A stretch of DNA of 64,000 nt from Prevotella sp. Its GTDB lineage: Bacteria > Bacteroidota > Bacteroidia > Bacteroidales > Bacteroidaceae. The stretch spans positions 62,001-126,000 of the forward strand of contig JAFTQG010000055.1 of NCBI GenBank assembly GCA_017462915.1. Direction: 5' to 3'. Shown here one piece after another: positions 309 to 64,000 of this stretch. The notes under the pieces were generated by a model, which saw only the letters and a program-made list of their open reading frames with translations, ran no database searches and was not told where the DNA came from. A program made the translations under genes and the position numbers. Position 1 is the first letter of the stretch; each line of letters opens with the position of its first letter.

Positions 309-425
309 GGAATAGCCGATATAGCCAAAATAGCCGTTATAGCCTCTATAGCTTCTATTCCGGCTATCTCGGCTATTCCGGCTATCAACCTTAACCTTAA
401 CCCTAACGATAACCCAAAACCCAAA
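309..425. repeat. 9-nt-period palindromic array 1 plus GGTTAA-type tail
   Basis: 309-386 reads ATAGCCGAT-like 9-mers in the left half and CTATTCCGG-like 9-mers, their reverse complement, in the right half. It is followed at 387-425 by 6-7-nt units such as CTTAAC and CCCAAAA. A short reading frame through it (243-434) encodes only the tripeptide-like repeat IADIAKIAVIASIAS and is not considered a gene. Confidence 0.8.
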
Positions 426-462
426 ACCTCCTAACCGTACAAAGCATCTCACCACAACAGTA

Positions 463-497
463 GTGCACCACGGTACGTCCCTACAGTTTACGCAATA
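463..497. repeat. CTACAG-type repeat, copy 1
   Basis: The sequence from GTGCACCACGGTACGTCC through CTACAGTTTACGCAATA recurs with one or two changes at 54210-54251, where it forms the right arm of a hairpin. The rest of 498-574 is simple AACTCATAACTTATAACTC sequence with no gene that I can see. Confidence 0.6.
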
Positions 498-574
498 CGC
501 TCGCAGAGCTCAACTCATAACTTATAACTCATAACTCACAACTGCTCCTAACCGTATCACCGAAAAACCGCCCT

Positions 575-3500
575 ATGGAAAACAGACACCCTGCCCTGCA
601 TGACATCTACGAACCGGAAGTGGCGAGCACCCTCTTCCGTGAGCTCGGCGACGCCGTCGCCGGGCGTACCGACATGCACGGCGTGTACAAAGCCCTTGAA
701 CATATCTTCCAGCGCTGCCTCTTCATGAAGACAGGCACGGCACGGCTCAATCTCGGCGGCACATTTGCCAAGACCGACTACCTGCTGAAGGAATACCGCG
801 CACCGAAGAGTCTCGTGACGGCCGTCAACGACACGCGTGTACGTCTGCGTAAGGCCGCAGGACAGGCGGCGCACAGTGAGACCGTCGACGGCCTGCGGCT
901 GGAAGACCATTACATGCACGACTTCCGCAACCTCTGCGAGTTCATCTCCTTCATCTACAAGACACCCGTGCCGGGACAGCTCGCCGCCATGTTTCCCGAG
1001 AGCCGCAGGGAGGAGCAGAGCCTGTCCCTCATAGGCGAATATGCGCGCGTCATCGTGGAGAGATGGGACGACCGGTTCATCTACTGCCAGCACGAGAGTT
1101 CCATAGAGGGAGAGACCGTGAGAGTCGCCTACAGCGGCGGCGTCAACGGCCACGACTGGTCGTATCTCCGCGAGATGCTCTACGAGGGTGCACAGCTCAA
1201 CATCATACGCCCGAGGGAGAAGGACGGCGTGCTGATACCCGAGCTCATCATCCTCGAACCCGACTATCTCGTCGACATCTCCGCCATAGCGCGCTGCTTC
1301 ACGAGCTACGCCGAGTCGCCCCTCGTACACCTTATAAACAAGATACAGCCGCAGCAGACCACCGAACCCATCATACTCGGTAACTTCGCCAGCCAGCTCC
1401 TCGACGAGGCCATGACACACCGCGACACCGGTATGCCGCCCTACAGCCGGAGCGCAAGGGACTTCTTCAAGGACAACGCCCTGAACTTCCTCACATTAGG
1501 GCGCAACCATGACCTGCACAGGAACGCCCAGATGCAACGCATCAACATACAGGCGGCACTCGATACGCTGGAAGAGTCCCTCGGACGCTTCAACGTCAAC
1601 GACGCCATCGTAGAGCCTTCGTTCTTCTCCGAGATGCTCGGCCTGCAGGGACGCATGGACTATCTGCAGCTCGACCTCAAGGTCCTTATGGAGCAGAAGT
1701 CGGGCAAGAGCGCGTTCTCCTGCAACGAGACGGAGATAAAGCCCCGGGAGGAGCACTATATACAGCTGCTGCTCTACATGCTCATCATACGCTACAACTA
1801 CCGCGAAATATACGAGCGGAACAACCGCGAACTGCACGCTCTCCTGCTCTACTCCAAATACAGCAACGGACTCATCGAGCTTCCCTTTGCCCCGCAACTC
1901 GTGTTCCGCGCCCTGAAAGTGAGGAACGGCATAGCACGGGCAGACATGGCATACACACAGCCGGGAGGCTTCGCCCTCCTCGAGACGCTCTCAGCAGACC
2001 TGCTCAACGAGAAGAACGCCCGCGGAACGCTCTGGGAGCGGTATCAGAAGCCACAGCTCCAGAGCCTGCTCGCGCCTATCCGCGACGCCTCGCCGCTCGA
2101 AAGGATGTACTGCCTGCGGTTCATGACATTCATAGCCAACGAGCACGCCATGGCGAAAACGGGCAACAGGACGAAGGAGAACTCGGGCTTCGCCGCAAAA
2201 TGGCACGACTCTCTCGAGGAGAAACGCCTCGCGGGAAACATCCACGACGGGCTCTCCCTGCTCTCGCCCGACAGGGAGACGAAGGGGAAGATAGAGCGTG
2301 TGACGCTGAGATTCCCCGAGACGGCAGACAACGACATGTCGAACTTCCGCACAGGAGACATCGTGATACTCTATCCTTACGCCAAGGGCGAGGTGCCCGA
2401 CGCGAGGGCGACGATGGTCTTCCGCTGCTCCATAGAGGAGATAGGACAGGAGACCCTCACGCTCATGCTCCGCGCGCCACAGTCGGACAGCCGTGTCTTC
2501 ATGCGCCATGAAGGCATGGTCTGGGCCATCGAGCACGACTTCTTCGAGTCCTCATACAGCGCGCTGTACCGTGGGATGCACGCCTTCCTCTCCGCCCCGA
2601 AGGAGCGCAGGGATCTCCTCCTGCTGCAGAGAGAGCCTGAGACCGACGGGACACGGCGGCTGAAAGGCGACTACGGGGCGTTCAACAGCCTGTCGCTGCG
2701 CGTCAAGCAGGCAAAGGATATATTCCTCATCATCGGGCCGCCGGGGACGGGAAAGACATCGTTCGGCATGCTCAATACCGTCCGTGAGGAACTTCTCGAG
2801 GAGGATACCAACATCCTTCTCATGTCGTACACCAACAGGGCGGTGGACGAGATATGCTCCAAGCTCCATCAGGAGGGCATCCGTTTCATAAGAATCGGCG
2901 GCCGCCTCAACTGCTCCGGCGACTACCGCGACAGGCTTCTCGACGAGAGGGTGCAGGCGAGCGAGAGCATAGAGTCGCTCCGGGAGGAGATAATGGCGAC
3001 GCGCGTCATCGTCGGCACCACGACATCGCTCACCGCAAACATACAGCTCCTCGGCATGAAGGAGTTCAGCCTGGCGGTCATCGACGAGGCTTCGCAGATA
3101 CTCGAGCCGCATCTCACCGGACTGCTCAGTGCCCACCGCAACGGCGTCCCTGCCCTGCGCAAGCTCGTCTTCATAGGCGACCACAAGCAGTTGCCTGCCG
3201 TCGTGCAGCAGAGGCAGGAGACATCGCGTGTGGAGGAGGAGGCTCTCCATGCCATACATCTCACGGACTGCCGCCTGTCGCTCTTCGAACGCCTGCTGAG
3301 AAGGTATGGCGGTGACAGCCGTGTCGTGTACATGCTGACAAGGCAGGGCCGTATGCACCGCGACATAGCGATGTTTCCCAACCACGCGTTCTACAACAAC
3401 CGCCTTGAGGTAGTGCCGTGTCCTCACCAGACCGTGACGCTCCCGTTCAGGGGAAAGGGCACCGACGGCATCGACGATATGCTGGCGACACGACGCATAG

Positions 3501-4906
3501 CCTTCATCGCCGTGCCTGCTCCGCAGAGGTCTCCGTCGGAGAAGGTCAACCAGGACGAGGCGGACATCATAGCGGCGACGGTGGCGAGGATATACGAGAG
3601 GGAGCGGGAGGTGTTCTCCGCCGACAGGACAGTGGGCGTAATCGTGCCTTACCGCAACCAGATAGCCACCGTACGCAACACCATCGCCGGCTACGGCATA
3701 GAGGCGCTCGACGACATAACGATAGACACAGTGGAGAGATACCAGGGCTCGCAGCGCAGGTATATCGTCTACGGATTCACCGTGCAGAGGTATCACCAGC
3801 TGGATTTCCTGTCTGCCAACACCTTCACGGACACCGACGGGAGCATCATAGACCGTAAGCTCAAGGTCGCCATGACGCGTGCCGAGGAGCATCTCGTCAT
3901 GGTAGGCAACCCGGCGCTGCTTGCCAACAACTTCATCTTCTTCAAACTGATGGAGTTCGTGAGGAGCAAGCACGGGTATTTCCATATCCCGAAGGAGAGG
4001 TATGTACGGGGAGACTTCGCCGTTCCGCCTTACGACCCAGAGGCGCTTGACCTCGGCAGGGCGGCGTTCGGTGTCTCGGAGGCGTTCGGCAAGGCGTTCG
4101 CGCGACATGTCGCCATGCCTCTTCAGGAGGCTTCGGGAGAGGGATGGCCGGAGAAGGTCATGGGAGCGGACATGACGGCAAACCTCAATGCCATAGGCTA
4201 CGGCAGGACAGGATTCTCCGACCCGACACGGAAGGAGGGCCAGGACGGCATGACTCCCATGCAGCAGGCTCTCGTCTACTGCCATTATCTCATGCGTCCG
4301 CAGTATTGTCTCGCCAAGGAAATCTACGCCTCCTGCGGCGAGCGGATAAGGTGTCTCATGGCGGAGGCGGAGGGAAGGGTGCATCTCATAGACATAGGAT
4401 GCGGAGCTTCGGCGTGCGGCGTGGCGTTCGCCGAACTATTCCGGGACATCGCTCCCGGCATGACGTACACCGGCATAGAGGCTTCCGCGGAGATGAGGGA
4501 CATGGGAAAGGCCTTCATCGATGAGATATGCCGAGGGGCTCTGCCCTGCCGCATGGAAGGCTCTTTCGAGACTCTCGGCAAGGAACTGCTGGAGGAGCGT
4601 CACGGGATGCCGTCGCTTACGGTATTCAACTTCTCATGGTTCTTCCACAATGTCACGGCGCAGTATGCCGAACGGCTTGCTCTCCAGCTGGCAGACATCA
4701 TGGCACGACACCCTCAAGGCAAGTTCATCCTTGTCGTGCAGCATTACAGGAACGACTCTTGCCTGAACGCCTACAGGGCTTTCATGCAGGTGTTGCAGAC
4801 CCGCATCAGTGTCATCGGGCGAGGGACGGCCACTACTGCCTGCACTCTTGACGGCCGCAAGCACATGCTTTCCTCGCGGTATGATGTGCTTGAGGGACGG
4901 TTGTAG
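575..4906 (+). CDS. PD-(D/E)XK nuclease-like / SF1 helicase / methyltransferase-like fusion protein
   Basis: A 1443-aa cytoplasmic protein with no signal peptide. A RecB/Cas4-like nuclease motif is visible near residues 358-400: GRMDYL, then EQKSGK, then a QLLLYMLII helix. An SF1 (Dna2/Upf1-like) helicase follows: Walker A GPPGTGKTS near 722, Walker B VIDEAS near 835, GDHKQLPAVV near 868, a QGSQRRYIVYGF motif near 1057 and VAMTRAEEHLVMVG near 1100. After about 150 less clear residues comes IDIGCGASACG near 1273, which matches methyltransferase motif I, with a following TYTGIEAS strand as motif II. This suggests DNA end-processing or defence, but no reaction is proven. The gene is monocistronic, 420 nt after tRNA-Asn, and converges on the gene at 5351. 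The ATG at 575 is the first in frame; no Shine-Dalgarno is seen, as is usual in this group. Helicase assignment is firm; the other two domains are motif-level calls. Confidence 0.85.
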   Translation: MENRHPALHDIYEPEVASTLFRELGDAVAGRTDMHGVYKALEHIFQRCLFMKTGTARLNLGGTFAKTDYLLKEYRAPKSLVTAVNDTRVRLRKAAGQAAHSETVDGLRLEDHYMHDFRNLCEFISFIYKTPVPGQLAAMFPESRREEQSLSLIGEYARVIVERWDDRFIYCQHESSIEGETVRVAYSGGVNGHDWSYLREMLYEGAQLNIIRPREKDGVLIPELIILEPDYLVDISAIARCFTSYAESPLVHLINKIQPQQTTEPIILGNFASQLLDEAMTHRDTGMPPYSRSARDFFKDNALNFLTLGRNHDLHRNAQMQRINIQAALDTLEESLGRFNVNDAIVEPSFFSEMLGLQGRMDYLQLDLKVLMEQKSGKSAFSCNETEIKPREEHYIQLLLYMLIIRYNYREIYERNNRELHALLLYSKYSNGLIELPFAPQLVFRALKVRNGIARADMAYTQPGGFALLETLSADLLNEKNARGTLWERYQKPQLQSLLAPIRDASPLERMYCLRFMTFIANEHAMAKTGNRTKENSGFAAKWHDSLEEKRLAGNIHDGLSLLSPDRETKGKIERVTLRFPETADNDMSNFRTGDIVILYPYAKGEVPDARATMVFRCSIEEIGQETLTLMLRAPQSDSRVFMRHEGMVWAIEHDFFESSYSALYRGMHAFLSAPKERRDLLLLQREPETDGTRRLKGDYGAFNSLSLRVKQAKDIFLIIGPPGTGKTSFGMLNTVREELLEEDTNILLMSYTNRAVDEICSKLHQEGIRFIRIGGRLNCSGDYRDRLLDERVQASESIESLREEIMATRVIVGTTTSLTANIQLLGMKEFSLAVIDEASQILEPHLTGLLSAHRNGVPALRKLVFIGDHKQLPAVVQQRQETSRVEEEALHAIHLTDCRLSLFERLLRRYGGDSRVVYMLTRQGRMHRDIAMFPNHAFYNNRLEVVPCPHQTVTLPFRGKGTDGIDDMLATRRIAFIAVPAPQRSPSEKVNQDEADIIAATVARIYEREREVFSADRTVGVIVPYRNQIATVRNTIAGYGIEALDDITIDTVERYQGSQRRYIVYGFTVQRYHQLDFLSANTFTDTDGSIIDRKLKVAMTRAEEHLVMVGNPALLANNFIFFKLMEFVRSKHGYFHIPKERYVRGDFAVPPYDPEALDLGRAAFGVSEAFGKAFARHVAMPLQEASGEGWPEKVMGADMTANLNAIGYGRTGFSDPTRKEGQDGMTPMQQALVYCHYLMRPQYCLAKEIYASCGERIRCLMAEAEGRVHLIDIGCGASACGVAFAELFRDIAPGMTYTGIEASAEMRDMGKAFIDEICRGALPCRMEGSFETLGKELLEERHGMPSLTVFNFSWFFHNVTAQYAERLALQLADIMARHPQGKFILVVQHYRNDSCLNAYRAFMQVLQTRISVIGRGTATTACTLDGRKHMLSSRYDVLEGRL

Positions 4907-4916
4907 GCGGTTTTTG

Positions 4917-5031
4917 CGGTTAGACGGTTGTACGGTTATGCGGATATTACACGGTTATGCGGTTGATAGCCGGAATAGCCGATATAGTCTCTATAGATTC
5001 TATTCCGGCTATATTGGCTATTCCGGCTATC
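4917..5031. repeat. 8-nt arm plus 9-nt-period palindromic array 2
   Basis: 4917-4964 carries ACGGTTAT/GCGGTTNN-type 8-nt units. 4965-5031 is the array: GATAGCCGGAATAGCCGA at the left end and its complement TATTGGCTATTCCGGCTATC at the right. Confidence 0.75.
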
Positions 5032-5069: not shown

Positions 5070-5145
5070 CCCCGGTTAAGCGAGAGCAGAGCCAAGCTTG
5101 CTTGAGCTCTGCAGAGCGGAAGGGACTTAGAGCGAAGCTCAACCC
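5070..5145. repeat. GCTTAA-type repeat, copy 1
   Basis: Starts with CCCCGGTTAAGCGAGAGCAG, continues CAAGCTTGCTTGAGCTCTGC, and ends GAGCGAAGCTCAACCC. The same order (9-nt array, AACCTAAAAC linker, this repeat) is found again at 30856-31115. Contains short dyads such as GAGCGAAGCTC. Confidence 0.65.
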
Positions 5146-8402: not shown

Positions 8403-8463
8403 CACAAAAACACCGATTAAAATGCCACAAAAACACCGATTAAAATGCCACAAAAACACCGAT
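8403..8463. repeat. 23-nt tandem repeat, about 2.6 copies
   Basis: The unit begins CACAAAAACACCGATTAAAA and ends TGC; copies start at 8403, 8426 and 8449. It ends 27 nt upstream of the -33 element of the ATPase promoter and could affect its expression. The remaining part of the 8062-8540 gap shows no gene. Confidence 0.85.
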
Positions 8464-23923: not shown

Positions 23924-24135
23924 GTTTTTACGGTTATACGGTTGGGCGGTTATGCGGTTTTACGGTTAGGCGGTTATGCGGTTGGGCGGTTTTACGGTTA
24001 TTGTTAAGGTTAGGGATAGGGTTAGGGTTAAGGTTGATAGCCGGAATAGCCTGTATAGCCCCTATAGATTCTATATCGGCTATTACGGCTATCACCGTCT
24101 AACCGTCTAACCGTCTAACCGTCTAACCGTAAACA
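23924..24135. repeat. Composite repeat: 8-nt arms, GGTTAA units, 9-nt-period array 3
   Basis: 23924-24000 has ACGGTTNN/GCGGTTNN 8-nt units. 24001-24035 has GGTTAAGGTTAGGG-type units. 24036-24093 is the array, beginning GATAGCCGGAATAGCC and ending TATTACGGCTATC. 24094-24135 is the inverted arm, four copies of ACCGTCTA. It fills the gap between the GH28 and DUF4230 genes. Confidence 0.8.
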
Positions 24136-24826: not shown

Positions 24827-24828
24827 TG

Positions 24829-25023
24829 GTTTGGTGGTTTAGTGGTTTAGTGGTTTGGTGGTTTAGTGGTTTAGTCGTTTGGTCGTTTGGTCGTTTGGTC
24901 GTTTGGTTACTTGGTTGATAGCCAGAATAGCCGATATAGCCGATATAGAGGACTAATAACTAAACCACTAAACAACTAAACCACCAAACAACTAAACCAC
25001 CAAACAACTAAACCACCAAACCA
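24829..25023. repeat. Composite repeat: inverted 8-nt arms around a half 9-nt array (4)
   Basis: 24829-24916 holds about eleven GGTTTAGT/GGTTTGGT/CGTTTGGT units; 24953-25023 holds the complementary ACTAAACC-type units. Between them 24917-24950 has only the left half of the 9-nt array (GATAGCCAGAATAGCCGATA...) and then GAGGACTAATAACTAAAC. The arms could pair over most of their length. Confidence 0.85.
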
Positions 25024-26121: not shown

Positions 26122-26269
26122 TTTGCGGTTTTTACGGTTGGGCGGTTCATACGGTTGGGCGGTATTGCAGTTGTACGGTTATACAGTTAGGCGGTTGCCA
26201 CAAAGACATTTATCCGCATAACCGTCCAACCGTAAAACCGTATGAACCGCCCAACCGCAAAAACCGCAT
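26122..26269. repeat. Inverted 8-nt arms without a 9-nt array
   Basis: 26122-26195 carries GCGGTTTTTACGGTTGGGCG and further ACGGTT/GCGGTT units; 26216-26269 carries the complementary AACCGTCCAACCGT and CCGCCCAACCGCAAAAACCG. Only about 20 nt separate the arms, so a hairpin of roughly 50 bp could form between the pdxA2-like and kinase genes. Confidence 0.8.
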
Positions 26270-26271
26270 TT

Positions 26272-27315: not shown

Positions 27316-27318
27316 GGT

Positions 27319-27429
27319 GGTGGTTTAGTGGTTTAGTGGTTTGGTGGTTTGGTGGTTTAGTGGTTTGGTTAATAGCCGGAATAGCCGATATAGAGGACTA
27401 ATAACTAAACAACTAAACCACCAAACAAC
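27319..27429. repeat. Composite repeat: inverted 8-nt arms around a half 9-nt array (6)
   Basis: 27319-27370 holds GGTTTAGT/GGTTTGGT units, 27371-27395 a short left-half array (AATAGCCGGAATAGCCGATA), then GAGGACTAATAACTAAAC and ACTAAACC-type units to 27429. The junction GATATAGAGGACTAATAACT is the same as in the copy at 24829-25023. Confidence 0.85.
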
Positions 27430-30855: not shown

Positions 30856-30941
30856 GATAGCCGGAATAGCCGATATAGCCGGAATAGAGGCTATAGAGAC
30901 TATTTTGGCTATCAAGGCTATAGAGGCTATAGAGGCCTATC
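30856..30941. repeat. 9-nt-period palindromic array 7
   Basis: Left half GATAGCCGGAATAGCCGATA with GGAATAGAGG after it; right half is CTATTTTGGCTATC followed by AAGGCTATAGAGGC, so the symmetry is imperfect. Preceded by GGTTTNGG-type units (30825-30855). Confidence 0.75.
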
Positions 30942-30952: not shown

Positions 30953-31115
30953 ACAAAGTCCCGGTTAAGCGAGAGCAGAGCCAAGCTTGCTTGAGCTCTG
31001 CCGAACTTTTCGAGTAAGCGAGAACAGTAAAAAAGCTTGCTTTTAGACTGTCGAGCGAGAGAAAAGTCAAGATTACTTAATCGGAAGGGACTTCGAGCGA
31101 AGCTCAACCCACAAC
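30953..31115. repeat. GCTTAA-type repeat, long copy 2
   Basis: Starts as at 5070 (TCCCGGTTAAGCGAGAGCAG, then CAAGCTTGCTTGAGCTCTGC), but has an extra 60-70 nt insert with related units (CGAGTAAGCGAGAACAG, AAGCTTGCTTTTAGACTG, TCGAGCGAGAGAAAAG) before the shared end GGAAGGGACTTCGAGCGAAG. It stops 8 nt from the symporter stop codon. Confidence 0.7.
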
Positions 31116-33900: not shown

Positions 33901-34003
33901 GATAGCCGGAATAGCCGATATAGCCGGAATAGAAGCTATAACGGCTATCGTGGCTATATCGGCTATAATGGCTATAATGGCTATAATGGCTATATCGGCT
34001 ATC
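33901..34003. repeat. 9-nt-period palindromic array 8, 103 nt
   Basis: Left half GATAGCCGGAATAGCCGATA, middle AGAAGCTATAACGGCTATCG, right half has three identical 9-mers (CTATAATGG) and ends TATATCGGCTATC. One of the longest copies in the window. Confidence 0.85.
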
Positions 34004-34388: not shown

Positions 34389-34585
34389 AAGTAAGTCACA
34401 AAAATTAAACGATACAATCCATGATAAAGCAAGCACTTACATCTTGTATGTATAAGCCTTGTTCTTTTTGGCTGTTTTTGCCTTGTCTCTCAGTCACATA
34501 GCCCGCTATGTTCCTTCGTTACAAGACGAAAACATCTCAAAAATAACAAAGCTTTATACTATACATTAATTTTTGTGACTTACTT
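34389..34585. mobile_element. MITE-like element with 20-bp terminal inverted repeats, 197 bp
   Basis: AAGTAAGTCACAAAAATTAA (34389-34408) is perfectly inverted at 34566-34585, and AT-rich subterminal parts with ATAAAGC are also inverted. The interior (CTCAGTCACATAGCCCGCTA, then TGTTCCTTCGTTACAAGACG) has no reading frame. It ends 2 nt from the susD stop codon. Which transposase could move it is not known from this window. Confidence 0.6.
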
Positions 34586-34587
34586 TA

Positions 34588-39717: not shown

Positions 39718-39802
39718 GATAGCCGGAATAGCCGATATAGCCGAAATAGAAGTTATAGAGGTTATAATATCTATTGCGGCTATTTGGGCTATCCCGGCTA
39801 TC
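39718..39802. repeat. 9-nt-period palindromic array 9
   Basis: Left half GATAGCCGGAATAGCCGATA then GCCGAAATAGAAG; right half ends GGGCTATCCCGGCTATC. Preceded by TTTAGGGTTTTAGGTTGG-type units (39678-39717). Confidence 0.8.
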
Positions 39803-42301: not shown

Positions 42302-42513
42302 AAGTGGTTTGGTTGTTTGGTGGTTTAGTTGTTTGGTGGTTTAGTGGTTTGGTTGTGGGTGGTAGGTGATGATAGCCAGAATAGCCGATATAGCCGGAAT
42401 AGAAGCTATAGAGTCTATAATATCTATATCGGCTATATCGGCTATCATCACCTACCACCCACAACCAAACCACTAAACCACCAAACCACTAAACAACTAA
42501 ACAACTAAACAAC
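42302..42513. repeat. Composite palindrome: long inverted arms around 9-nt-period array 10
   Basis: The left arm 42302-42370 (GGTTTNGT units, then GTGGGTGGTAGGTGATGAT) is complementary to the right arm 42447-42513 (ATCACCTACCACCCAC, then ACCAAACC/ACTAAACC units). The array 42371-42446 lies between them and is itself inverted end to end. A transcript could fold into one hairpin with about 60-70 bp of outer stem. Clearest full example in the window. Confidence 0.9.
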
Positions 42514-42514
42514 T

Positions 42515-42545
42515 AAAAAGGCCACCACGCATCCCGCGTGGCAGC
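42515..42545 (-). terminator. Terminator of the cohesin/dockerin gene cluster
   Basis: CCACGC (42525-42530) and GCGTGG (42536-42541) form a stem extended by GC pairs, followed on the minus strand by CTTTTTAG. It lies 30 nt after the stop codon at 42575. Confidence 0.7.
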
Positions 42546-52729: not shown

Positions 52730-52797
52730 CATCTGCGTAATCTGCCGAATCTGCGTGCTGTAGGTGTGTCACGCGGATTCGGCAGATTACGCAGATG
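52730..52797. repeat. ATCTGCGT-type palindrome, copy 1
   Basis: 28-nt arms at 52730-52757 and 52770-52797 pair with one mismatch around a 12-nt loop. Each arm is made of three 9-nt units (ATCTGCGTA, ATCTGCCGA, ATCTGCGTG). A degenerate GATAGCCGGGATAGG follows at 52830. Confidence 0.85.
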
Positions 52798-52903
52798 ATT
52801 ATTTTCTCCGGTTGTGCGGTTGTCTGGTGATAGCCGGGATAGGAAATATATCATAAGATGCGCAACAGTTCTTCTGCTTACCATTTTTGACTATATATAA
52901 ATT

Positions 52904-52971
52904 AATCTGCGTCATCTGCTGAATCTGCGTGACATATTTACAGCACGCAGATTCAGCAGATGACGCAGATT
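52904..52971. repeat. ATCTGCGT-type palindrome, copy 2
   Basis: Perfect 28-nt arms at 52904-52931 and 52944-52971 with a 12-nt loop (ACATATTTACAG). Units are ATCTGCGTC, ATCTGCTGA, ATCTGCGTG. It lies 63 nt from the end of the LytTR gene and could end its transcript, though no T-run follows. Confidence 0.85.
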
Positions 52972-53034
52972 CTTATTCCTTGTTTACCGGCAGAGCAGAC
53001 GATAAGGAATGACAGCAGGAACATACGGGCACTG

Positions 53035-54048: not shown

Positions 54049-54191
54049 ATATTTGAAATGAAAAAGCGAAAGCTATCGGAAAGAAAATTCCCGATACATC
54101 TATATAATAACCTAAAGTTACAAAAAAAACGATAACCTTAACCCTAACCTTAACGATAACCATATAAAACTGCATGCCACACCTCACCACA

Positions 54192-54251
54192 CTGTAGGGA
54201 CGTACCGTGGTGCACCGCTGTCCACGGTACTTCCCTACAGTTTACGCAATA
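54192..54251. repeat. CTACAG-type hairpin, copy 2
   Basis: CTGTAGGGACGTACCGTGG (54192-54210) pairs with CCACGGTACTTCCCTACAG (54222-54240) with one mismatch; then TTTACGCAATAT. Matches 463-497. Preceded by GATAACCTTAACCCTAACC-type units (54130-54165) and followed by a short 9-nt-type fragment (54284-54302). Confidence 0.7.
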
Positions 54252-54306
54252 TTCTAATCGTAATCTAAAAAATGATAACCATATATCGGCTATTCCGGCT
54301 ATAATG

Positions 54307-55832: not shown

Positions 55833-56079
55833 ACGATAACATTAACCCTAACCTTAACGATAGCAGGGATAGCCGATATAGCCGGAATAGAAGCTATAGA
55901 AACTATAGAGGCTATAGAGGCTATAGAGGCTATAATATCTATATCGGCTATTGAGGCCTATTACGGCTATATCGGCTATCACCACCCAAAACCACCAAAC
56001 CACCAAACCACCAAACCACTAAACCACTAAACAACTAAACCACTAAACAACCAAACCACCAAACAACCAAACAACCACC
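55833..56079. repeat. Composite repeat: GGTTAA-type units, 9-nt-period array 13, 8-nt arm
   Basis: 55833-55858 AACATTAACCCTAACCTTAA; 55859-55980 the longest array (122 nt) with five successive GAGGCTATA-type 9-mers in the middle; 55981-56079 about twelve ACCAAACC/ACTAAACC units running up to the transporter stop codon. Here the left and right outer arms belong to different unit types. Confidence 0.85.
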
Positions 56080-56080: not shown

Positions 56081-57112
56081 TCACTTCCCTGCCTTCCAGA
56101 GCTGGTAGGAGTTGACGAGATTGTGCCAGATGCTGTAGCATCCGCCGACGACGGAGGTCACGGGATTGAGGAACATCAGCCCGAGCCATATCACGAAGAC
56201 GGTGTTCTTCTGCCCGAAGGCCTGTCCTGCCGTTATCGCGCTGCGCTCTCCGGCATCGACATAAGTGGCAGGGTCGTAGACGGCAATCTTCCACTCCGAG
56301 GGGTCTTTCACGGGCTGCGGCCACCGCCGTCCTATCGTCCTGCCGAGGCGGAACTGCAGGAGGCAGGCCGCAAGGGAGACGAGCGACAGCCAGAGGAGCA
56401 TGGAGAGAGGGATATGGCTGTCGTATATCGTGCGCACGGTGACGGTGATGGCGAGGGGAAGGGCCACGAGCCAGAGGTAGAAGGGGAGGTCTGGGACGCT
56501 GAGGAGCTTCTCCGAGAGGCTGTGGCAGAAATGGCGCACGGTGATGGCGAGTACCAACGGGCAGAGGAGGAGCGGGAAGACCTGTCCTGTGATGAGGAAT
56601 AGCTCGGTGAAGAAGTCCATGCCGGCGTGTGGCTCCACGAGGGTGAGGAACGCCGGAGCAAGGATGCTCACCATCATGTTGCAGAGGAGGATATATGTCA
56701 CTATTCCCGACATGGAGCCTCCGAGTTTCCTCACTATCACTGCCGCTGCCGTGGCGGTGGGACAGATAAGGCAGAGCATCGCGCCTTCAAGGACGATCTT
56801 GATGTCTGCCGTGGCTTCTGCGGGGAAGAGCGTCCCGCAGCTCCAGGCGGCGAGGGACGCGAGGGCGAAGAGCCCTCCTTGTGTGAGGAGGAGGAGCCCG
56901 TGCCAGCGGTGGGGCTTGAGCTCGTGGGGGCTCACGCGGAGGAAGGAGAGGAAGAGCATGACGAATATCAGCGTCGGCTGTATGGCGCGTGTTATCACGG
57001 TGTAGAGGGCCTTCTCGCCGTCTTCGCCGAGGGGAAGGGCGCGGAAGATGTAGTATGCCAGCACGCCCATCGCCATGGCGACAGGGAGCTTGAAGGTGCG
57101 GAGGAGGGACAT
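56081..57112 (-). CDS. Bile acid:sodium symporter (BASS)-family transporter, 343 aa
   Basis: An inner-membrane protein with 9-10 helices. Family features: IQPTLIFVMLFLSFLRVSPH, AMLCLICPTATAAAVIVRKL (a crossed-helix TATAAAV motif), GIVTYILLCNMMVSILAPAF, and a C-terminal AGQAFGQKNTVFVIWLGLMF, typical of BASS proteins. The substrate may be an organic anion or keto acid; it cannot be told. The ATG at 57112 is used because the in-frame extension to 57259 encodes only the repeat-derived peptide NSHYSLYSFYSGYIGYSGY. It lies downstream of frdB beyond a terminator and a repeat. Confidence 0.82.
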   Translation of the reverse strand: MSLLRTFKLPVAMAMGVLAYYIFRALPLGEDGEKALYTVITRAIQPTLIFVMLFLSFLRVSPHELKPHRWHGLLLLTQGGLFALASLAAWSCGTLFPAEATADIKIVLEGAMLCLICPTATAAAVIVRKLGGSMSGIVTYILLCNMMVSILAPAFLTLVEPHAGMDFFTELFLITGQVFPLLLCPLVLAITVRHFCHSLSEKLLSVPDLPFYLWLVALPLAITVTVRTIYDSHIPLSMLLWLSLVSLAACLLQFRLGRTIGRRWPQPVKDPSEWKIAVYDPATYVDAGERSAITAGQAFGQKNTVFVIWLGLMFLNPVTSVVGGCYSIWHNLVNSYQLWKAGK

Positions 57113-57113
57113 T

Positions 57114-57223
57114 TTTTTGTGGTTATACGGTTGTGCGGTTGTGGGGTTATAGCCGGAATAGCCGATATAGCCGGAATAGAAGCTATAGAGGCTATAATGG
57201 CTATTCTGGCTATTGCGGCTATC
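57114..57223. repeat. 8-nt arm plus 9-nt-period palindromic array 14
   Basis: 57114-57148 GTGGTTATACGGTTGTGCGG-type units; 57149-57223 the array ATAGCCGGAATAGCCGATAT ... CTATTGCGGCTATC. It separates frdB from the transporter gene and touches the start region of the latter. Confidence 0.8.
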
Positions 57224-57230
57224 AGTCCTA

Positions 57231-57279
57231 AAAAACCATTGCAACGACCGCCCGGACAAAGGGTATTGTCCGGGCGGTC
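57231..57279 (-). terminator. Terminator of the frd operon
   Basis: GACCGCCCGGACAA (57246-57259) and TTGTCCGGGCGGTC (57266-57279) form a perfect 14-bp stem with a 6-nt loop; on the minus strand a T-run (GGTTTTTTAGG) follows after 9 nt. It is 30 nt after the frdB stop codon. Confidence 0.7.
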
Positions 57280-57309
57280 TATTGAATAGAGAGAGTGGAT
57301 GTGTCGCTT

Positions 57310-58068
57310 TTAGTCGGCGAGCTTCGCCTTGATGAACTCGCGGTTCAGGCGTGCGATGTTTGCGATGGACTCGTTCTTAGGGCATACGGCCTCGCAGGCA
57401 CGGGTGTTCGTGCAGTTGCCGAAGCCGAGCTCTTCCATCTTCATCACCATTGCCTTGGCGCGCTTCGCTGCCTCCGGGCGTCCCTGTGGGAGGAGGGCGA
57501 GCTGGCTCACCTTAGAGGAGACGAAGAGCATCGCTGAACCGTTCTTGCAGGCTGCCACGCAGGCGCCGCAGCCGATGCATGTGGCGCAGTCCATTGCCTC
57601 GTCGGCATCCTGCTTAGGGATAAGGATGGCGTTGGCGTCCTGTGCCTGTCCTGTGCGGATGCTGGTGTATCCGCCTGCCTGGATGATCTTGTCGAAGGCG
57701 TTGCGGTCTACCATGCAGTCCTTGATGACAGGGAAGCCTGCCGAGCGCCATGGCTCCACGGTGATGGTGTCGCCGTCGTTGAACTTGCGCATGTAGAGCT
57801 GGCATGTGGTAGCTCCGCGCTCTGTCTTTCCGTGCGGTGTGCCGTTGATGTAGAGTGAGCACATGCCGCAGATGCCTTCGCGGCAGTCGTGGTCAAACAC
57901 GAATGGCTCCTTGCCGTCGTTGATGAGCTGTTCGTTCATCATGTCGAGCATCTCGAGGAATGATGTGTCGTCAGGCACATTCTTCATTACCTGCTCGTCG
58001 AAGTGTCCCTGGTCCTTCGGACCGTTCTGCTTCCAGAATCTTACTGTTACGGTTATATTTTTTGCCAT
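57310..58068 (-). CDS. frdB: Fumarate reductase/succinate dehydrogenase iron-sulfur subunit
   Basis: Carries electrons between the heme b subunit and the flavin subunit of complex II at the inner face of the membrane. A [2Fe-2S] domain is seen in [18 protein letters not shown] and GATTCQLYM (residues 58-90). The C-terminal part has the Cys clusters [17 protein letters not shown] (about 160) and [14 protein letters not shown] (about 218) for [4Fe-4S] and [3Fe-4S]. Length 252 aa is normal for the Bacteroidetes type. It is separated from frdA by an unrelated small gene, which is unusual. In this group the complex works mainly as a fumarate reductase in anaerobic energy metabolism. Confidence 0.96.
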
Positions 58069-58071
58069 TTT

Positions 58072-58107
58072 TTAGTCGTTTTGTGGTTTGGTCGTTTTGT
58101 TGTTTGG
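58072..58107. repeat. 8-nt-type arm downstream of the four-helix-bundle gene
   Basis: GTCGTTTTGTGGTTTGGTCG, then TTTTGTTGTTTGGTTA. It is complementary in type to 58484-58521, so the small gene between is enclosed by inverted arms. Confidence 0.65.
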
Positions 58108-58470
58108 TTATTTGTCCTTTTGTTTTACCGATGTAATCAAGGCGCTAAGCATCTTGCGTATTATAGTCAACTGCCCGGATAGTCTTGACTCCGTCTCGTC
58201 GTCAATATAGCCGAAACGGTGACTTAAGACGAGTTGCGTATCAAGTTCGGAAGCCGAGCCGGAGGCTATGTACAGGAAGTGCAGTGTCTCCTTGTCTGTG
58301 CCGCGCGCATACCCTTCAGCTATATTCATCGAGATGGATGTGGCGGCTCTGCGCATTTGCGAGACCATGCCGAACATCTCATCCTTTGGGTATCTGCGCG
58401 TTATGTCTTGGACATCTACAGCAATATCTATTGCGTTTTGCCAGACCTTCAGATTCTTGTGAGACTCCAT
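58108..58470 (-). CDS. Four-helix-bundle (S23/IVP-type) protein inside the frd operon, 120 aa
   Basis: Matches the S23 family that is often encoded in 23S rRNA intervening sequences and also scattered in Bacteroidetes genomes: ESHKNLKVWQNAIDIAVDVQ, YPKDEMFGMVSQMRRAATSI, MNIAEGYARGTDKETLHFLY and ASGSASELDTQLVLS. The function is unknown; it is small and cytoplasmic, with a conserved surface. The Met at 58470 starts the standard N-terminus; the extension to 58518 lies in the repeat arm. The gene interrupts frdA-frdB, and both flanks are 8-nt repeat arms in inverted order, so it looks like an inserted cassette. Expression would be by read-through of the frd transcript. Confidence 0.88.
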   Translation of the reverse strand: MESHKNLKVWQNAIDIAVDVQDITRRYPKDEMFGMVSQMRRAATSISMNIAEGYARGTDKETLHFLYIASGSASELDTQLVLSHRFGYIDDETESRLSGQLTIIRKMLSALITSVKQKDK

Positions 58471-58483: not shown

Positions 58484-58521
58484 TAACTAAAAGACCAAAC
58501 AACCAAACAACCAGACAACCA
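58484..58521. repeat. 8-nt-type arm upstream of the four-helix-bundle gene
   Basis: AACTAAAAGACCAAACAACC, then AAACAACCAGACAACCAA; inverted relative to 58072-58107. It ends 4 nt from the frdA stop codon. Confidence 0.65.
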
Positions 58522-58524
58522 ATT

Positions 58525-60533: not shown

Positions 60534-61217
60534 TTATTTCAGTGTGAACGCTATTGCCACCACGGCGAAGCCGAGCATGAGCACGGTGGTGTAGACTGTG
60601 CCGATGACCTTCCAGCGGCAGAACCATACCTTGCCGTTGATGCCGAGGGTCTGCATGGCAGACCAGAAGCCGTGTGTGAGGTGGAACCAGATTGCGGCGA
60701 ACCACAGGAGGTAGATGACGGTGTACACAGGGTTGGCGAAGGTGTGCTCTATCCATGCGTATCCGTCGGCAGGGCCAGGGACGCCTGCGCATGTGCCGTA
60801 GATGGCAGAAGCTGGGTCAAGGAGCTCCTGCGCCATCATGTTCCACCAGAAGTTGTAGAGGTGGAGCACCATGCCGAGGACGATGATGATGCCGAGGACG
60901 AGCATGTTCTGCGAAGCCCAGTCGACCATCGCCGGCTTGTCTGTCACGGCATACTGGCTGTTGCCGCGCGCCTTCTTGTTCTGGAGCGTGAGCCAGAAAG
61001 CGTAGAAGATGTGAATCACTGCCAGACCGGCAAGGCCGAGTGTCGCCACCACAGCATACCAGTTGGCTCCAAGGAACTCACAGATCATGTTGTAGCCTTC
61101 TGCAGAGAACAGCGCGACCACGTTCATGCTCATGTGGAACGTCAGGAAAAGGATAAGGCAGATGCCTGTAACGGACATCACTACCTTTCTACCGATTGGA
61201 GAGTTTAATAACCACAT
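60534..61217 (-). CDS. frdC: Succinate dehydrogenase/fumarate reductase cytochrome b subunit
   Basis: Membrane anchor with five helices that binds heme b and menaquinone. Helices start at SPIGRKVVMSVTGICLILFL and include VVATLGLAGLAVIHIFYAFW and YTVIYLLWFAAIWFHLTHGF. Conserved His residues are seen in FLTFHMSMN, AVIHIFYAF, GMVLHLYNFWW and WFHLTHGFWSA. The ATG at 61217 is used because the longer frame to 61676 passes through repeats (IADIAGIEAIETTEAIQ). First gene of the frd operon. The likely promoter at 61726-61756 leaves a leader of about 500 nt that includes a 9-nt-period array. Confidence 0.93.
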   Translation of the reverse strand: MWLLNSPIGRKVVMSVTGICLILFLTFHMSMNVVALFSAEGYNMICEFLGANWYAVVATLGLAGLAVIHIFYAFWLTLQNKKARGNSQYAVTDKPAMVDWASQNMLVLGIIIVLGMVLHLYNFWWNMMAQELLDPASAIYGTCAGVPGPADGYAWIEHTFANPVYTVIYLLWFAAIWFHLTHGFWSAMQTLGINGKVWFCRWKVIGTVYTTVLMLGFAVVAIAFTLK

Positions 61218-61284
61218 AGAAATGTTTTTGAATGTTGATTGATTAGTTATGTTTTCTTTTTTGCTTGTTTCCTGAGAATGGGGG

Positions 61285-61434
61285 TGTACGGTTTTACGGT
61301 TTGATACGGTTTTGCGGTTGGGCGGTTTACGGTGATCGGCGATAGCCGTTATAGCCGCAATAGCCGATATAGCCTGAATAGCCTCTGTAGTCTCTATAGC
61401 TTCTATTCCGGCTATATCGGCTATTCCGGCTATC
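61285..61434. repeat. 8-nt arm plus 9-nt-period palindromic array 15, in the frd leader
   Basis: 61285-61340 TGTACGGTTTTACGGTTTGA-type units; 61341-61434 the array, GATAGCCGTTATAGCCGCAA at the left and CTATATCGGCTATTCCGGCT at the right. It lies between the predicted frd promoter and frdC, so it would be part of the mRNA. Confidence 0.85.
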
Positions 61435-61435
61435 G

Positions 61436-61640
61436 TCAGGGTTAGGGTTACCGTCATTTCCCGACAGTCACCCTTTGCCGCCCGGAGGGTCACCCTTCGC
61501 AGGGTGAAAGGTGAGGGTTGCGACGGTGAAAGGTCACGGTCTGTCTTTTGGGTCAGCGGCTTTTGTCCCCGTTCCTTACCGTTAACCTCATGGTTAAGGT
61601 TAAGGTTAAAGTCAGGGTTAGGGTCAAGGTTTCCACAGCC
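61436..61640. repeat. GGTGACC-type copy 4 with GGTTAA-type units
   Basis: 61436-61452 AGGGTTAGGGTTACCG; 61464-61545 GTCACCCTTTGCCGCCCGGA, GGGTCACCCTTCGCAGGG, TGAAAGGTGAGGG, GTGAAAGGTCACGG; 61588-61640 GGTTAAGGTTAAGGTTAAAG and AGGGTTAGGGTCAAGG. No gene is seen between 61218 and 61815. Confidence 0.65.
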
Positions 61641-61794: not shown

Positions 61795-61815
61795 CAGTAA
61801 AATAAAAAAAACGCA

Positions 61816-63813
61816 ATGATACTTTTCTATGACGTGATAGTCATCGGGGCAGGACACGCGGGATGCGAGGCGGCATGTGCAAGTGCCGGCATCGGCGCAA
61901 GGACATGCCTCGTGACGATGGACATGAACAAGACGGCACAGATGTCGTGCAACCCTGCCGTGGGAGGAATAGCCAAGGGACAGATAGTCCGCGAGGTCGA
62001 CGCCCTCGGCGGAAGGATGGGCATGGTCACGGACAGGACAGCCATACAGTTCCGTATGCTCAACCGCTCCAAAGGCCCTGCCATGTGGAGCCCGAGGGCA
62101 CAGTGCGACAGAGGCAAGTTCATCTGGGAATGGAGACACCAGCTCGACATCACTCCCGGACTTGACATCTGGCAGGACCAGGTCGACGGACTGCTCACGG
62201 AGAACGGACACGTCACCGGCGTGACGACCGTCTGGGGCGTGGAGATAAGGGCGAAGAGCGTCGTGGTGACGGCAGGGACTTTCCTCAACGGACTGCTCCA
62301 CATAGGCCGCAAGATGCTCCCGGGAGGAAGAATCGCCGAACCTGCCGCCACACGTCTCACAGAGTCCATCAACAGCCTCGGCATACGCTCGGCACGCATG
62401 AAGACGGGAACGCCCGTGCGTATCGACGCGCGCTCGGTACACTACGAGGACATGACACGGCAGGACGGCGAGCAGACCGACAGGATGTTCAGCTACCTCG
62501 ACTCACAGACGTTCGAGAGCCAGTATCCTGACAGCCGCGAGAATTTCGCCCTCCCTCACAGCGACAACGGCGACGGGGCTGGCGGCTCAGTGCTCCCATG
62601 CTGGACGACGGAGACGAACCGCCGATGCCACGAAAGACTCATGGCGGGCATAGCCGACTCTCCGCTCTACAACGGACAGATACACTCCATCGGACCGCGC
62701 TACTGCCCTTCGGTGGAGACAAAGCTCATGACATTCCCTGACCGCGACTCTCATCCGCTCTTCCTCGAACCTGAAGGGACGGACTCCAACGAGATGTACC
62801 TCAACGGCTTCTCATCGTCCATGCCTATGGAGGTGCAGATAGAGGCGCTGAAGGAGATTCCGGCGTTCCGCGACCTGAAGGTCTACCGCCCGGGATATGC
62901 CATAGAGTACGACTTCTTCGACCCGACACAGCTGAAACATACGTTGGAATCGAAGATTTGCGGCGGACTCTTCTTCGCCGGACAGGTCAACGGCACGACA
63001 GGATATGAGGAGGCGGCAGGCCAGGGGCTCATGGCAGGTCTCAATGCCGCGCTCCTCGCCGGCGGAGGAGAAGGACTGGTGCTCGACAGAGACCAGGCGT
63101 ATATCGGCGTGCTCATAGACGACCTCGTGATGAAGGGTGTCGACGAACCGTACCGCATGTTCACCTCCAGAGCGGAATATCGCATACTGCTCCGTCAGGA
63201 TGATGCCGACAGGAGACTGACTCCACTCTCCTACTCTGCCGGACTGGCGACTGCCGTCAGGATGGACTGCTGGCGCAGGAAGGAGAAGGCTATCGACGCT
63301 CTCATGGAGAAGTTGCGGAATACTACGGTGAAACCGCAGGAAATAAATCCTTACTTGGAACAAATCGGTTCTACTCCGCTCCGTGGCTCATATCATCTTC
63401 ATGACCTTCTCGCTCGTCCGGGCGTGACGATAGAGGGTCTTGTGGAACATGGTGTGCTGCGCGATTTCTGTGCAGATTTCATCGGATTTTCCGCCGAAAA
63501 ACACACCGACAGCACGACATCGTCCTCTGCATCTGAGCAGAGCAGCATGGGTCGCGAGGTCATCGAGGCCACGGAGGTGATGGTAAAATATGATGGGTAT
63601 ATCCGCCGCGAGCGCGAATATGCAGACAAGATGCACCGCCTCGAGGACATCAAAATACGCGGAAACTTCGACTATAATTCTCTGCAGAGCCTCTCCACTG
63701 AGGCACGACAGAAGCTCACGGCACGACAGCCGCAGACTCTCGCGCAGGCTTCACGCATACCGGGCGTCTCCCCTTCAGACATCAATGTCCTGCTGGTCTA
63801 CATGGGACGCTAA
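61816..63813 (+). CDS. mnmG: tRNA uridine-34 5-carboxymethylaminomethyl synthase subunit MnmG (GidA)
   Basis: With MnmE it modifies U34 of several tRNAs using FAD and methylene-tetrahydrofolate. The FAD motif YDVIVIGAGHAGCEAACASA is at the N-terminus, followed by the family signature SCNPAVGGIAKGQIVREVDA and GPAMWSPRAQCDR. Later signatures are EDMTRQDGEQTDR-like (MTRQDGEQTDRMF), NGFSSSMPMEVQ and AGQVNGTTGYEEAAGQGLMA. A Ser/Thr-rich insert (HTDSTTSSSASEQSSMG) near residue 560 makes it longer (665 aa) than the usual 620-630. The stop codon is directly followed by the parS-like site. Confidence 0.97.
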   Translation: MILFYDVIVIGAGHAGCEAACASAGIGARTCLVTMDMNKTAQMSCNPAVGGIAKGQIVREVDALGGRMGMVTDRTAIQFRMLNRSKGPAMWSPRAQCDRGKFIWEWRHQLDITPGLDIWQDQVDGLLTENGHVTGVTTVWGVEIRAKSVVVTAGTFLNGLLHIGRKMLPGGRIAEPAATRLTESINSLGIRSARMKTGTPVRIDARSVHYEDMTRQDGEQTDRMFSYLDSQTFESQYPDSRENFALPHSDNGDGAGGSVLPCWTTETNRRCHERLMAGIADSPLYNGQIHSIGPRYCPSVETKLMTFPDRDSHPLFLEPEGTDSNEMYLNGFSSSMPMEVQIEALKEIPAFRDLKVYRPGYAIEYDFFDPTQLKHTLESKICGGLFFAGQVNGTTGYEEAAGQGLMAGLNAALLAGGGEGLVLDRDQAYIGVLIDDLVMKGVDEPYRMFTSRAEYRILLRQDDADRRLTPLSYSAGLATAVRMDCWRRKEKAIDALMEKLRNTTVKPQEINPYLEQIGSTPLRGSYHLHDLLARPGVTIEGLVEHGVLRDFCADFIGFSAEKHTDSTTSSSASEQSSMGREVIEATEVMVKYDGYIRREREYADKMHRLEDIKIRGNFDYNSLQSLSTEARQKLTARQPQTLAQASRIPGVSPSDINVLLVYMGR

Positions 63814-63829
63814 TGTTTCACGTGGAACG
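63814..63829. promoter_or_regulatory. Candidate parS site (ParB-binding)
   Basis: TGTTTCACGTGGAACG differs from the standard TGTTTCACGTGAAACA at two of sixteen positions and keeps the full GTTNCACGTGNAAC core. It starts right after the mnmG stop codon. parS sites cluster near replication origins. Confidence 0.6.
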
Positions 63830-63878
63830 TATATAAAATCCACGATTTCAGCGGAGAATCCTGTCGGTGGCAACAAAA

Positions 63879-64000
63879 ACTATAGCCTATATAGCCGCAA
63901 TAGCCATGATAGCCTCTATGGATTCTATAGTCTCTATAATTCCTATAGCTTCTGTAGTTTCTATAATATCTATAGCTTCTATTCCGGCTATTCCGGCTAT
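63879..64000. repeat. 9-nt-period array 16, cut by the window end
   Basis: At least 122 nt: CTATATAGCCGCAATAGCCA at the left, a long middle of CTATAGTCT/CTATAATTC-like 9-mers, and CTATTCCGGCTATTCCGGCT at the right edge. Confidence 0.8.

Follow-up and report, generated by a model that had tools for sequence, protein, structure and literature searches.

The window analyzed here, a stretch of 64,000 nucleotides, lies in a Prevotella-like genome, and the spacers between its genes contain short tandem repeats. The features are as follows.

312..385, full 9-mer array, then the 6-mers AACCTT/AACCCT
4953..5030, full 9-mer array, with CGGTT units ahead of the array
23931..24001, CGGTTNNN 8-mer arm
24037..24092, full 9-mer array flanked by the 6-mers GGTTAG/GGTTAA and by ACCGTCTA 8-mers (24094-24130)
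24827..25023, minus strand (mRNA strand), complete stop-to-start spacer: GT 8-mers at about 25023-24959, 9-mer half array at 24947-24918, CA 8-mers at 24907-24827; the predicted fold of 24818-25032 is one stem (-91.6 kcal/mol, z -11.2)
26122..26271, minus strand, CGGTT/AACCG 8-mer spacer without 9-mers, between pdxA-like and kinase-like (SBD_N) genes
27316..27429, minus strand, complete stop-to-start spacer: GT 8-mers, 9-mer half array at about 27394-27372, CA 8-mers; the predicted fold of 27307-27438 has z -6.5
30857..30930, full 9-mer array
33902..34002, full 9-mer array of 11 units
39719..39801, full 9-mer array
39854-39821, minus strand, terminator-like site from a simple scan, separate from the 39719 array
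42304..42517, nested spacer: GT 8-mers at 42304-42363, 9-mer array at 42372-42445, CA 8-mers at 42461-42517
54283..54302, two-unit piece of a 9-mer right arm
55860..55980, full 9-mer array with a 1-nt phase shift; CA 8-mers then at 55989-56077
57145..57222, full 9-mer array
58071..58108, GT 8-mer arm
58494..58522, CA 8-mer arm
61338..61433, full 9-mer array
63882..64000, 9-mer array, running 31 bases past the window end

The called gene at 60534-61457 runs over the array at 61338..61433, and its start is probably wrong. In the sister genome G259, the gap orthologous to that of the 63882 array holds an array with different unit numbers. For the 34389 element in G259, 18 of 73 listed matches were at 72-91%. 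No plasmid match was found for window positions 575-4906.

The first-pass annotation listed 9-nt-period palindromic arrays at 13 places, and inspection of the sequence showed that each place has a 9-mer array, a half array, or a piece of one. A phase-based finder called 11 arrays of at least four units in the window or reaching into it; visual inspection added two half arrays (24918 and 27372) and a two-unit fragment (54283). The motif ATAGCCGGAATAGCC has 21 window matches with up to one mismatch, against a mean of 0.00 in 100 shuffles, and three copies of a Markov-resampled contig contained 0, 0, and 0 arrays. The assertion that arrays occupy most large gaps is an overstatement if 9-mers alone are counted (9 of 24 gaps); with 8-mers added, the count rises to 15 of 24. 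These gaps are at least 60 bp long as called, and both bordering genes have their borders inside the window; borders came from a simple, purpose-made gene caller. The arrays are almost wholly intergenic (112 of 4,553 array bases inside called genes).

The 9-mer arrays are real, but their first description was incomplete: repeat families of several periods occur in an ordered spacer, and the 9-mer is one of them. That description left out the 8-mer outer arms, the order relative to the gene strand, and the way in which the repeats adjoin stop and start codons. In many cases, the 9-mers are nested in a stop-to-start spacer with 8-mer outer arms, and the order on the mRNA is stop, GT-rich units, GGCTATNNC 9-mers, CA-rich units, and the next start. 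Tandem unit periods of 6, 7, 8, and 9 nt are found, and one unit alphabet is common to many gaps. On contig C38, 61 of the 84 same-strand gaps of at least 60 bp contain 8- or 9-mer tandems, and autocorrelation reaches z 34.7 at lag 8 and z 28.6 at lag 9. Autocorrelation was also computed for 20 other genomes (one 15-20 kb sample with 3-9 gaps each). Signals elsewhere were scattered: lag 7 in G316 (z 6.4) and G226 (z 4.5), and lags 7, 9, 10, and 13 in G324 (z about 3).

Across 492 units of the studied genome, the 8-mer has two freely varying positions, while the six others are 90-99% fixed. In two other genomes (38 and 47 units), position 5 is also free and position 8 is less free (T 0.87 and 0.72), with the remaining positions 84-97% and 79-100% fixed, respectively. 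Position-specific freedom of this kind, shared at position 5 with the two other genomes, is consistent with a binding-site array in which an RNA- or DNA-binding protein would read the core letters and the free letters would act as linkers (GTTT-R-GT-B, CGGTT-NNN, GGCTAT-NNC). The published account of the TAACTGA repeats of Beggiatoaceae proposes S1, cold-shock, or Csr proteins as candidate binders (PMC4679880). However, several unrelated cores and periods occur within one genome, and the relative G324 has other cores with an only modest genome-wide excess: its 9-mer ACTGWCAWTACTGWCA has 8 exact matches in G324 and 0-3 per genome in the other 397, with 15 of 398 genomes having any. From the sequence, we consider a binding-site array decidedly unlikely. 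RbpB was rejected as a binder; the published passages on it show no matching motif.

The layout follows transcription with few exceptions: GT-rich or GG-containing units come after the stop codon, and CA-rich, G-poor units come ahead of the next start. Among the 58 same-strand arrays, 53 were scored (5 unscored), and 9-mer polarity matches transcription in 44 (44 vs 9, Fisher p 1.4e-6). Same-strand gaps contain 64 GTTTNGTN arms: GT arms lie nearer the stop in 30 of 32 cases and within 15 nt of it in 29 of 32; CA arms lie nearer the start in 30 of 32 and within 15 nt of it in 20 of 32 (strand rule, p 7e-14). The 40 CGGTT arms keep the rule in 16 of 17 and 22 of 23 cases, adjoining the codons less commonly (within 15 nt in 6 of 17 and 9 of 23). 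The few convergent gaps (three GT and three CA arms) likewise have GT arms after stops. A TAG stop precedes 36 of 78 array gaps vs 9 of 82 other gaps (p 6e-7), and the G fraction of the last 40 nt upstream of the start is 0.07 in 77 array gaps vs 0.16 in 41 others. On the mRNA strand of 138 same-strand gaps, at least two GGCTAT occur without ATAGCC in 43, the opposite pattern in 2, and both hexamers in 23; the end-to-end symmetry ascribed to the arrays is borne out by the last group but not by the first. Because array polarity follows transcription, a role at the mRNA level is possible.

Of 58 same-strand 9-mer arrays, 42 lie closer to the stop than to the start (medians of 49 and 84 nt, respectively), as might be expected of an mRNA 3'-end or processing element, either a terminator or a REP-like protector of the upstream transcript. 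However, on the mRNA strand, 0 of 68 cases have a run of at least five T within 20 nt downstream of their final GGCTAT, and a separate terminator-like site stands beside one array (39719), with none at a second gap (57100-57330). Such an element is very unlikely, and an intrinsic terminator was rejected on the T-run count, in keeping with the earlier remark that a fixed 9-nt step is no normal terminator design. In at least one window gap, a terminator-like site (39854-39821) separates the array from the end of the gene; therefore, not every array need be co-transcribed with the gene upstream. The promoter-like TANNTTTG was present in 6 of 78 array gaps, where shuffles gave 3.8, and in 10 of 60 others, where shuffles gave 1.6. 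The only Rfam match at gathering score in the window was a tRNA, and known structured RNAs were rejected. A quadruplex was also discarded: none of the 78 array gaps has four runs of at least three G on either strand. Two-G motifs occur in 27 of 78 on the sense and 63 of 78 on the antisense strand.

Since inverted partners are common, end-to-end folding of the transcript is possible. Gaps with 8- and 9-mers fold better than their shuffles (n 33, median z -6.1), as do those with 8-mers only (n 4, z -7.8), compared with z -2.4 in gaps with neither (n 50); the values for joining of the two gap ends are 0.35, 0.60, and 0.00, respectively. These predictions could reflect a selected coupling hairpin, in which the GT arm after the stop would pair with the CA arm before the start and the leader would open only when a ribosome finishes the upstream gene. 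According to published passages, structure of -5.2 kcal/mol over the ribosome site cut a reporter five-fold in P. bryantii, which has no functional Shine-Dalgarno contact (PMC3155529), and RNA unfolding is one proposed model of coupling (PMC12548453). However, the 8-mer arms pair equally well within and across loci (0.777 vs 0.775, p 0.45), arm unit numbers are uncorrelated (r 0.02, 22 gaps), the arms show no wobble optimization, and many gaps have one arm only. The predicted pairing of positions -20..-1 is 0.45 vs 0.43 in controls, with a paired AUG predicted in 8 of 22 gaps vs 30 of 50 controls; thus, the start is not specially hidden. The same review also states that coupling declines with stop-start distance and tends to be weaker where structure directly follows the stop (PMC12548453). 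We regard the selected hairpin as possible but doubtful. The pairing constraint proposed in the first-pass annotation is not supported because arm pairing is not locus-specific. Compensatory pairing of the 9-mers was also rejected (own-locus 0.359 below cross-locus 0.452, p 0.998, 22 arrays), although this index-based comparison mixes polarities and is weak. A wider reading is that a bacterium without Shine-Dalgarno initiation rebuilt its operon spacers with a small set of repeat words, the fixed letters being read and the inverted halves folding stop onto start. If this unlikely reading were true, unit number would tune the coupling of neighboring genes and would differ between sister species, like evolving rheostats.

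The repeat is not confined to the window: the array 15-mer has 65+63 exact matches genome-wide, and its reversed control has 0. By hand count, 59 of the 128 matches fall on C38, in 7.2% of the genome. The repeat is lineage-limited; among 398 sampled genomes of the genus, the 9-mers occur in number in the studied genome (204) and its sister G259 (27) only, and the other sampled genomes have the motif at control level or not at all. No description of these Prevotella repeats was found among the best matches of the literature searched. A single polarized master sequence in many gaps, present in number in 2 of 398 genomes, would suit a mobile element such as a MITE, REP/RAYT, or integron cassette site, and inverted arms are present, as a comparison with MITEs would have it. 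However, no Y1 transposase match was found in the studied genome, whereas Y1 is present in 27 of 40 genomes searched; the integron integrase model scored 76.4 bits at best against a cut-off of 265; and unit numbers within shared arrays differ between the sister species. A mobile element is highly improbable. RAYT/REP was rejected on the missing Y1 match, although dead REPs are compatible with such absence, and the earlier exclusion of a REP design is upheld by the lack of RAYT. Integron cassettes with attC sites were considered because the spacers fit stop-to-start, and were rejected on the integrase score; below-cut-off matches occur in 14 of 14 controls too. CRISPR, also dismissed earlier, lacks its constant repeat and equal-length unique spacers here, since the units abut.

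Comparison with the sister points to turnover, with arrays that differ in unit number or in presence between the same gaps. Gap length differs in 9 of 9 array gaps (median 57 nt) with flanks 90-98% identical, and it is unchanged in 4 of 6 non-array gaps; however, by rank test, the contrast between the two sets of gaps is not significant (p 0.21, n 9 and 6). Tract counts differ in 9 of 9 array gaps; at C13:4063, for example, there are 12 GTTTNGT vs 1 and 3 GGCTAT vs 1. At C38:184105 and C38:125813, the sister gap has other elements, not fewer units. With such similar flanks but different unit numbers, the sister pair already offers a natural experiment.

These are probably slippage-grown, lineage-specific spacer repeats, similar to the GGGNATC repeats of Xanthomonas and Nostoc and ordered by translation. 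Short-period tandems would have grown inside gene spacers until many spacers came to be made up of repeats. Units would be gained and lost through slippage or unequal exchange, and the same units may be carried among gaps via recombination. Translation would maintain the unit order because Bacteroidetes initiate without Shine-Dalgarno contact and favor a G-poor open leader. Coding regions would set the limit to array growth, with the array commonly providing the TAG stop. The long stop-to-start stem would mainly be a by-product of the same units being present on both sides in inverted orientation, and it may serve mildly as an intercistronic spacer. However, slippage alone leaves the fixed and free 8-mer positions unexplained. 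Other observations run against parts of this account: in convergent gaps, no start needs protection after the GT arms; the clustering on C38 is not accounted for; and the other elements in some sister gaps do not suit unit loss.

STRR of cyanobacteria are short tandemly repeated repetitive DNA between genes, as are the repeats here, and STRR units are heptamers. STRR are not known to be nested or strand-ordered, unlike the present spacers. REP/BIME elements share with the arrays an intercistronic location, palindromic form, and many copies; however, they are fixed palindromes of a few tens of nucleotides linked to RAYT, whereas unit arrays without a Y1 transposase match are found here.

Passages on the TAACTGA heptamers of Beggiatoaceae, some Cyanobacteria, and Bacteroidetes describe direct repeats mostly a few nucleotides before starts, as here; one set in F. 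litoralis right after a stop in reverse orientation, resembling the present strand order; and, for some sets, shorter gaps without obvious repeats in the closest relatives, again as here (PMC4679880). The main genome of that account has one fixed unit and one inverted set, whereas degenerate units and frequent inverted arms are found here (PMC4679880). Published passages on the GGGNATC/(GGGANTN)n heptamers of Xanthomonas and Nostoc offer further likenesses: short units in which some positions are fixed and others free, spread over the genome and mostly between genes of the same strand, near the stop (some overlapping it) on the coding strand and near the start on the non-coding strand, with length varying between close relatives (PMC4692102). 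However, units of 8 and 9 nt (6 and 7 too) occur here, several families are nested per spacer, inverted partners are common, and there is no G3 quadruplex motif. The traits of the STRR/GGGNATC class are found here: tandem units of about 5-9 nt at many loci between genes, fixed and free positions within the unit, length or unit number varying between close relatives, and, as in GGGNATC, a G-rich strand that is coding after stops and non-coding before starts. Whether the repeats are passengers shaped by translation or tuners of neighboring genes is testable because of the strand rule and a genus whose member P. bryantii has no functional Shine-Dalgarno. The spacers appear to belong, in an extreme and strand-ordered form, to an already known bacterial spacer-repeat class and do not look like a new machine, and they follow the same strand rule as Xanthomonas and Nostoc with different units.

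Every array of 9-nt period that the first-pass annotation had listed in the large intergenic gaps was present in the window sequence. A finder requiring at least four units in phase modulo 9 was run on 373.6 kb of the source genome, G000 (2.93 Mb, 59 contigs), and returned 73 9-mer arrays, 57 of them within 208.6 kb of C38, the contig carrying the window (at 62001-126000); three Markov-resampled copies of C38 gave 0 arrays. Array densities outside C38 are biased because those stretches were chosen for containing matches. Exact matches to ATAGCCGGAATAGCC across the genome numbered 65+63 (reversed control, 0). C38 represents 7.2% of the genome, yet holds 59 of the 128 exact matches (p 4e-33; hand count among the matches listed), and its 9-mer match density is 6.4-fold above the expectation from its length. 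C44, the contig carrying rpoB, has 3 9-mer matches in 146 kb.

Each 9-mer unit consists of AT and seven letters. Left units are ATAGCCGNN and right units ATNNCGGCT, in identical phase, with ATAGAAGCT and ATAGAGGCT among the centre units. The array is polarised and reads GTG ATAGCCGGA ATAGCCGAT ATAGCCGGA ATAGAAGCT ATAGAGGCT ATAATATCT ATATCGGCT ATTCCGGCT ATCAC, or its reverse complement. Further period families flank it: 8-mers (GTTTRGTB and CGGTTNNN), 6-mers (GGTTAG/GGTTAA) and 7-mers. A common order on the mRNA is stop codon, GT-rich 8-mers, TATTAGTCT, GGCTAT 9-mers, sometimes AACCCT 6-mers, CA-rich 8-mers and start codon. On C38, an 8- or 9-mer tandem occurred in 61/84 same-strand gaps of at least 60 bp (0.15 expected in shuffled gaps), 7/12 convergent gaps and 7/12 divergent gaps; 9-mer arrays alone occurred in 43/84, 4/12 and 5/12, respectively.

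Gene borders throughout were taken from a simple caller built for this analysis, and 112 of 4553 array bases fell inside called genes. The upstream stop was nearer than the start for 42 of the 58 arrays in same-strand gaps, four of which overlapped the stop codon. The repeats mostly follow transcription: 60/64 GTTTNGTN arms obeyed a GT-after-stop, CA-before-start order, as did 38/40 arms of the second 8-mer family (CGGTT). Polarity was scored for 53 of the 58 9-mer arrays, and 44 of them matched the direction of transcription. Among the nine exceptions, plus-strand genes accounted for seven arrays, all in forward polarity (three lie at 128.8-138.3 kb of C38), and minus-strand genes for two, both in reverse polarity. 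Half arrays presented GGCTAT on the mRNA in 43/138 gaps and the opposite form in 2/138; in the sister genome, G259, the counts were 13 for GGCTAT vs 2 for ATAGCC. A TAG stop preceded 36/78 array gaps vs 9/82 others. TAG is contained in GTTTAGT and ATAGCC, and by eye the stop of several genes sits in such a unit.

The strongest sign of something past plain slippage is the pattern of fixed and free letters. Among 492 interior 8-mer units of G000, positions 1-4, 6 and 7 were fixed at 90-99%, position 5 was A (0.47) or G (0.50), and position 8 was G (0.48), T (0.35) or C (0.16). The search seed left positions 5 and 8 free, while extension allowed two changes at fixed positions, few of which were seen. 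In G551 (38 units), position 5 was free (T 0.45, G 0.29, A 0.26) and position 8 was mostly T (0.87); in G500 (47 units), position 5 was A (0.51), G (0.36) or T (0.11) and position 8 was T (0.72) or G (0.19). The remaining positions were fixed at 84-97% and 79-100%, respectively. A similar pattern was found in CGGTTNNN units (n=179; core 94-100% fixed) and GGCTATNNC units (n=209; CTAT 99-100%, both G residues and the final C 83-85%). Old variants spread through exchange between arrays would also give this pattern. Protein binding would be a live but less likely role.

A strong stem is predicted in the spacers. Among 125 same-strand gaps of 60-320 nt, those with an 8-mer tandem and the 9-mer hexamer (n=33) had a median z of -6.1 and end-to-end pairing of 0.35; the values were -7.8 and 0.60 with 8-mers only (n=4), -3.9 and 0.07 with the hexamer only (n=38), and -2.4 and 0.00 with neither repeat (n=50). 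Predicted folds in the window included 24818-25032 (-91.6 kcal/mol, z -11.2) and 27307-27438 (z -6.5). The first-pass annotation had proposed that slippage and a pairing constraint both act; nothing shows selection on the predicted pairing. Arm complementarity was no higher within loci than across loci, wobble-tolerant G was not enriched at position 5 of GT arms (A 95, G 71), and pairing near the AUG was no higher in 22 two-arm gaps than in 50 control gaps. Coupling of neighbouring genes would likewise be a live but less likely role. A terminator-like site lies between the array at 39719-39801 and its upstream gene; therefore, the two may not be co-transcribed.

Fifteen gaps were anchored as orthologous between G000 and G259 (9 array, 6 other). 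Length had changed in 9/9 array gaps (median 57 nt), and 4/6 other gaps were unchanged (rank test p 0.21). Of the two gaps classed as "non-array" that did change, one contains 8-mer-like repeats that the search pattern failed to pick up.

Array gaps of G000 compared with G259
C13:4063, GTTTNGT 12 vs 1, GGCTAT 3 vs 1
C13:8253, GTTTNGT 6 vs 2, GGCTAT 3 in each
C25a:32334, CGGTT 3 vs 1
C47:9632, GTTTNGT 8 vs 0, GGCTAT 4 vs 2
C38:187206, G259 gap shorter, without GTTTNGT, GGCTAT or CGGTT motifs
C38:184105, G259 without 9-mers, a different dispersed element instead
C38:125813, G259 gap of 800 nt with inserted elements

The relatives G324 and G343 are close in one gene (PdxA 93-94% identical), and their pdxA gaps carry sequence unrelated to that of G000: G324 has its own 9-nt GACARTAYT units plus CATGAT units, and G343 has little. 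The G324 stretches L175 and L195-L200 contain intergenic 9-nt GACARTAYT arrays and ~10-nt CATGAT arrays, and one G324 array gap has outer arms of GGTTATG / CCATAACC type.

Other repeats were noted in and near the window.
34389-34586, MITE-like element of ~200 bp with terminal inverted repeats TAAGTCACAAAAATTAA...TTAATTTTTGTGACTTA; 18/73 matches in G259 fall on it (72-91% identity)
5074-5140, 30960-31110 and the C38:56087 gap, dispersed palindromic element CCCGGTTAAGCGAGAGCAGAGCCAAGCTTGCTTGAGCTCTGC...GGGACTTCGAGCGAAGCTC within spacers; a G259 gap contains a similar element
460-490 and 54190-54245, dispersed repeat GTAGGGACGTACCGTGGTGC; in G259 it forms inverted pairs, twice within the gap orthologous to that at 63814
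52730-52975, pair of related palindromes around CTGCGTAATCTGCCGAATCTGCGTG
8403-8463, 23-bp unit in 2.7 perfect tandem copies

The 9-mer repeat is narrowly distributed. ATAGCCGNNATAGCC occurred 309 times in G000 (control 7) and 0-3 times apiece in 200 other sampled genomes of the family, level with their controls. Among 398 sampled genomes of the genus in which G000 and G259 are placed, a 24-mer searched with at most 3 mismatches allowed was found in number only in G000 (204) and G259 (27); six others had 1-2 matches and 390 had none. A contig-collection search matched the G259 contig alone, in a collection from which records close to the window's genome may be missing. Three tandem copies of GTTTNGT were present in 48/398 genus genomes, led by G000 (727), G551 (701), G500 (486), G221 (116) and G334 (88), a count biased toward the G000 form because the free letters of the pattern sat at positions 5 and 8. 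G551, G500, G221, G334 and G407 have many GTTTNGTN tandems, yet zero ATAGCC 24-mer matches.

We favour a reading in which slippage would expand the repeats between genes, translation would maintain their order within spacers, and the stop-to-start hairpin would be mainly a by-product, because the strand rule is that of GGGNATC repeats and because of data on initiation in P. bryantii. According to PMC3155529, P. bryantii initiates translation without functional Shine-Dalgarno contact; a structure of -5.2 kcal/mol on the initiation site causes a five-fold loss, and a hairpin at -21 gives no such loss. The Prevotella repeats share their strand rule with the GGGNATC repeats of Xanthomonas and Nostoc, which are reported to lie on the coding strand when they follow a stop codon, in some cases overlapping it, and on the non-coding strand when they precede a start codon (PMC4692102). 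The strand rule is shared in part by the TAACTGA repeats (PMC4679880).
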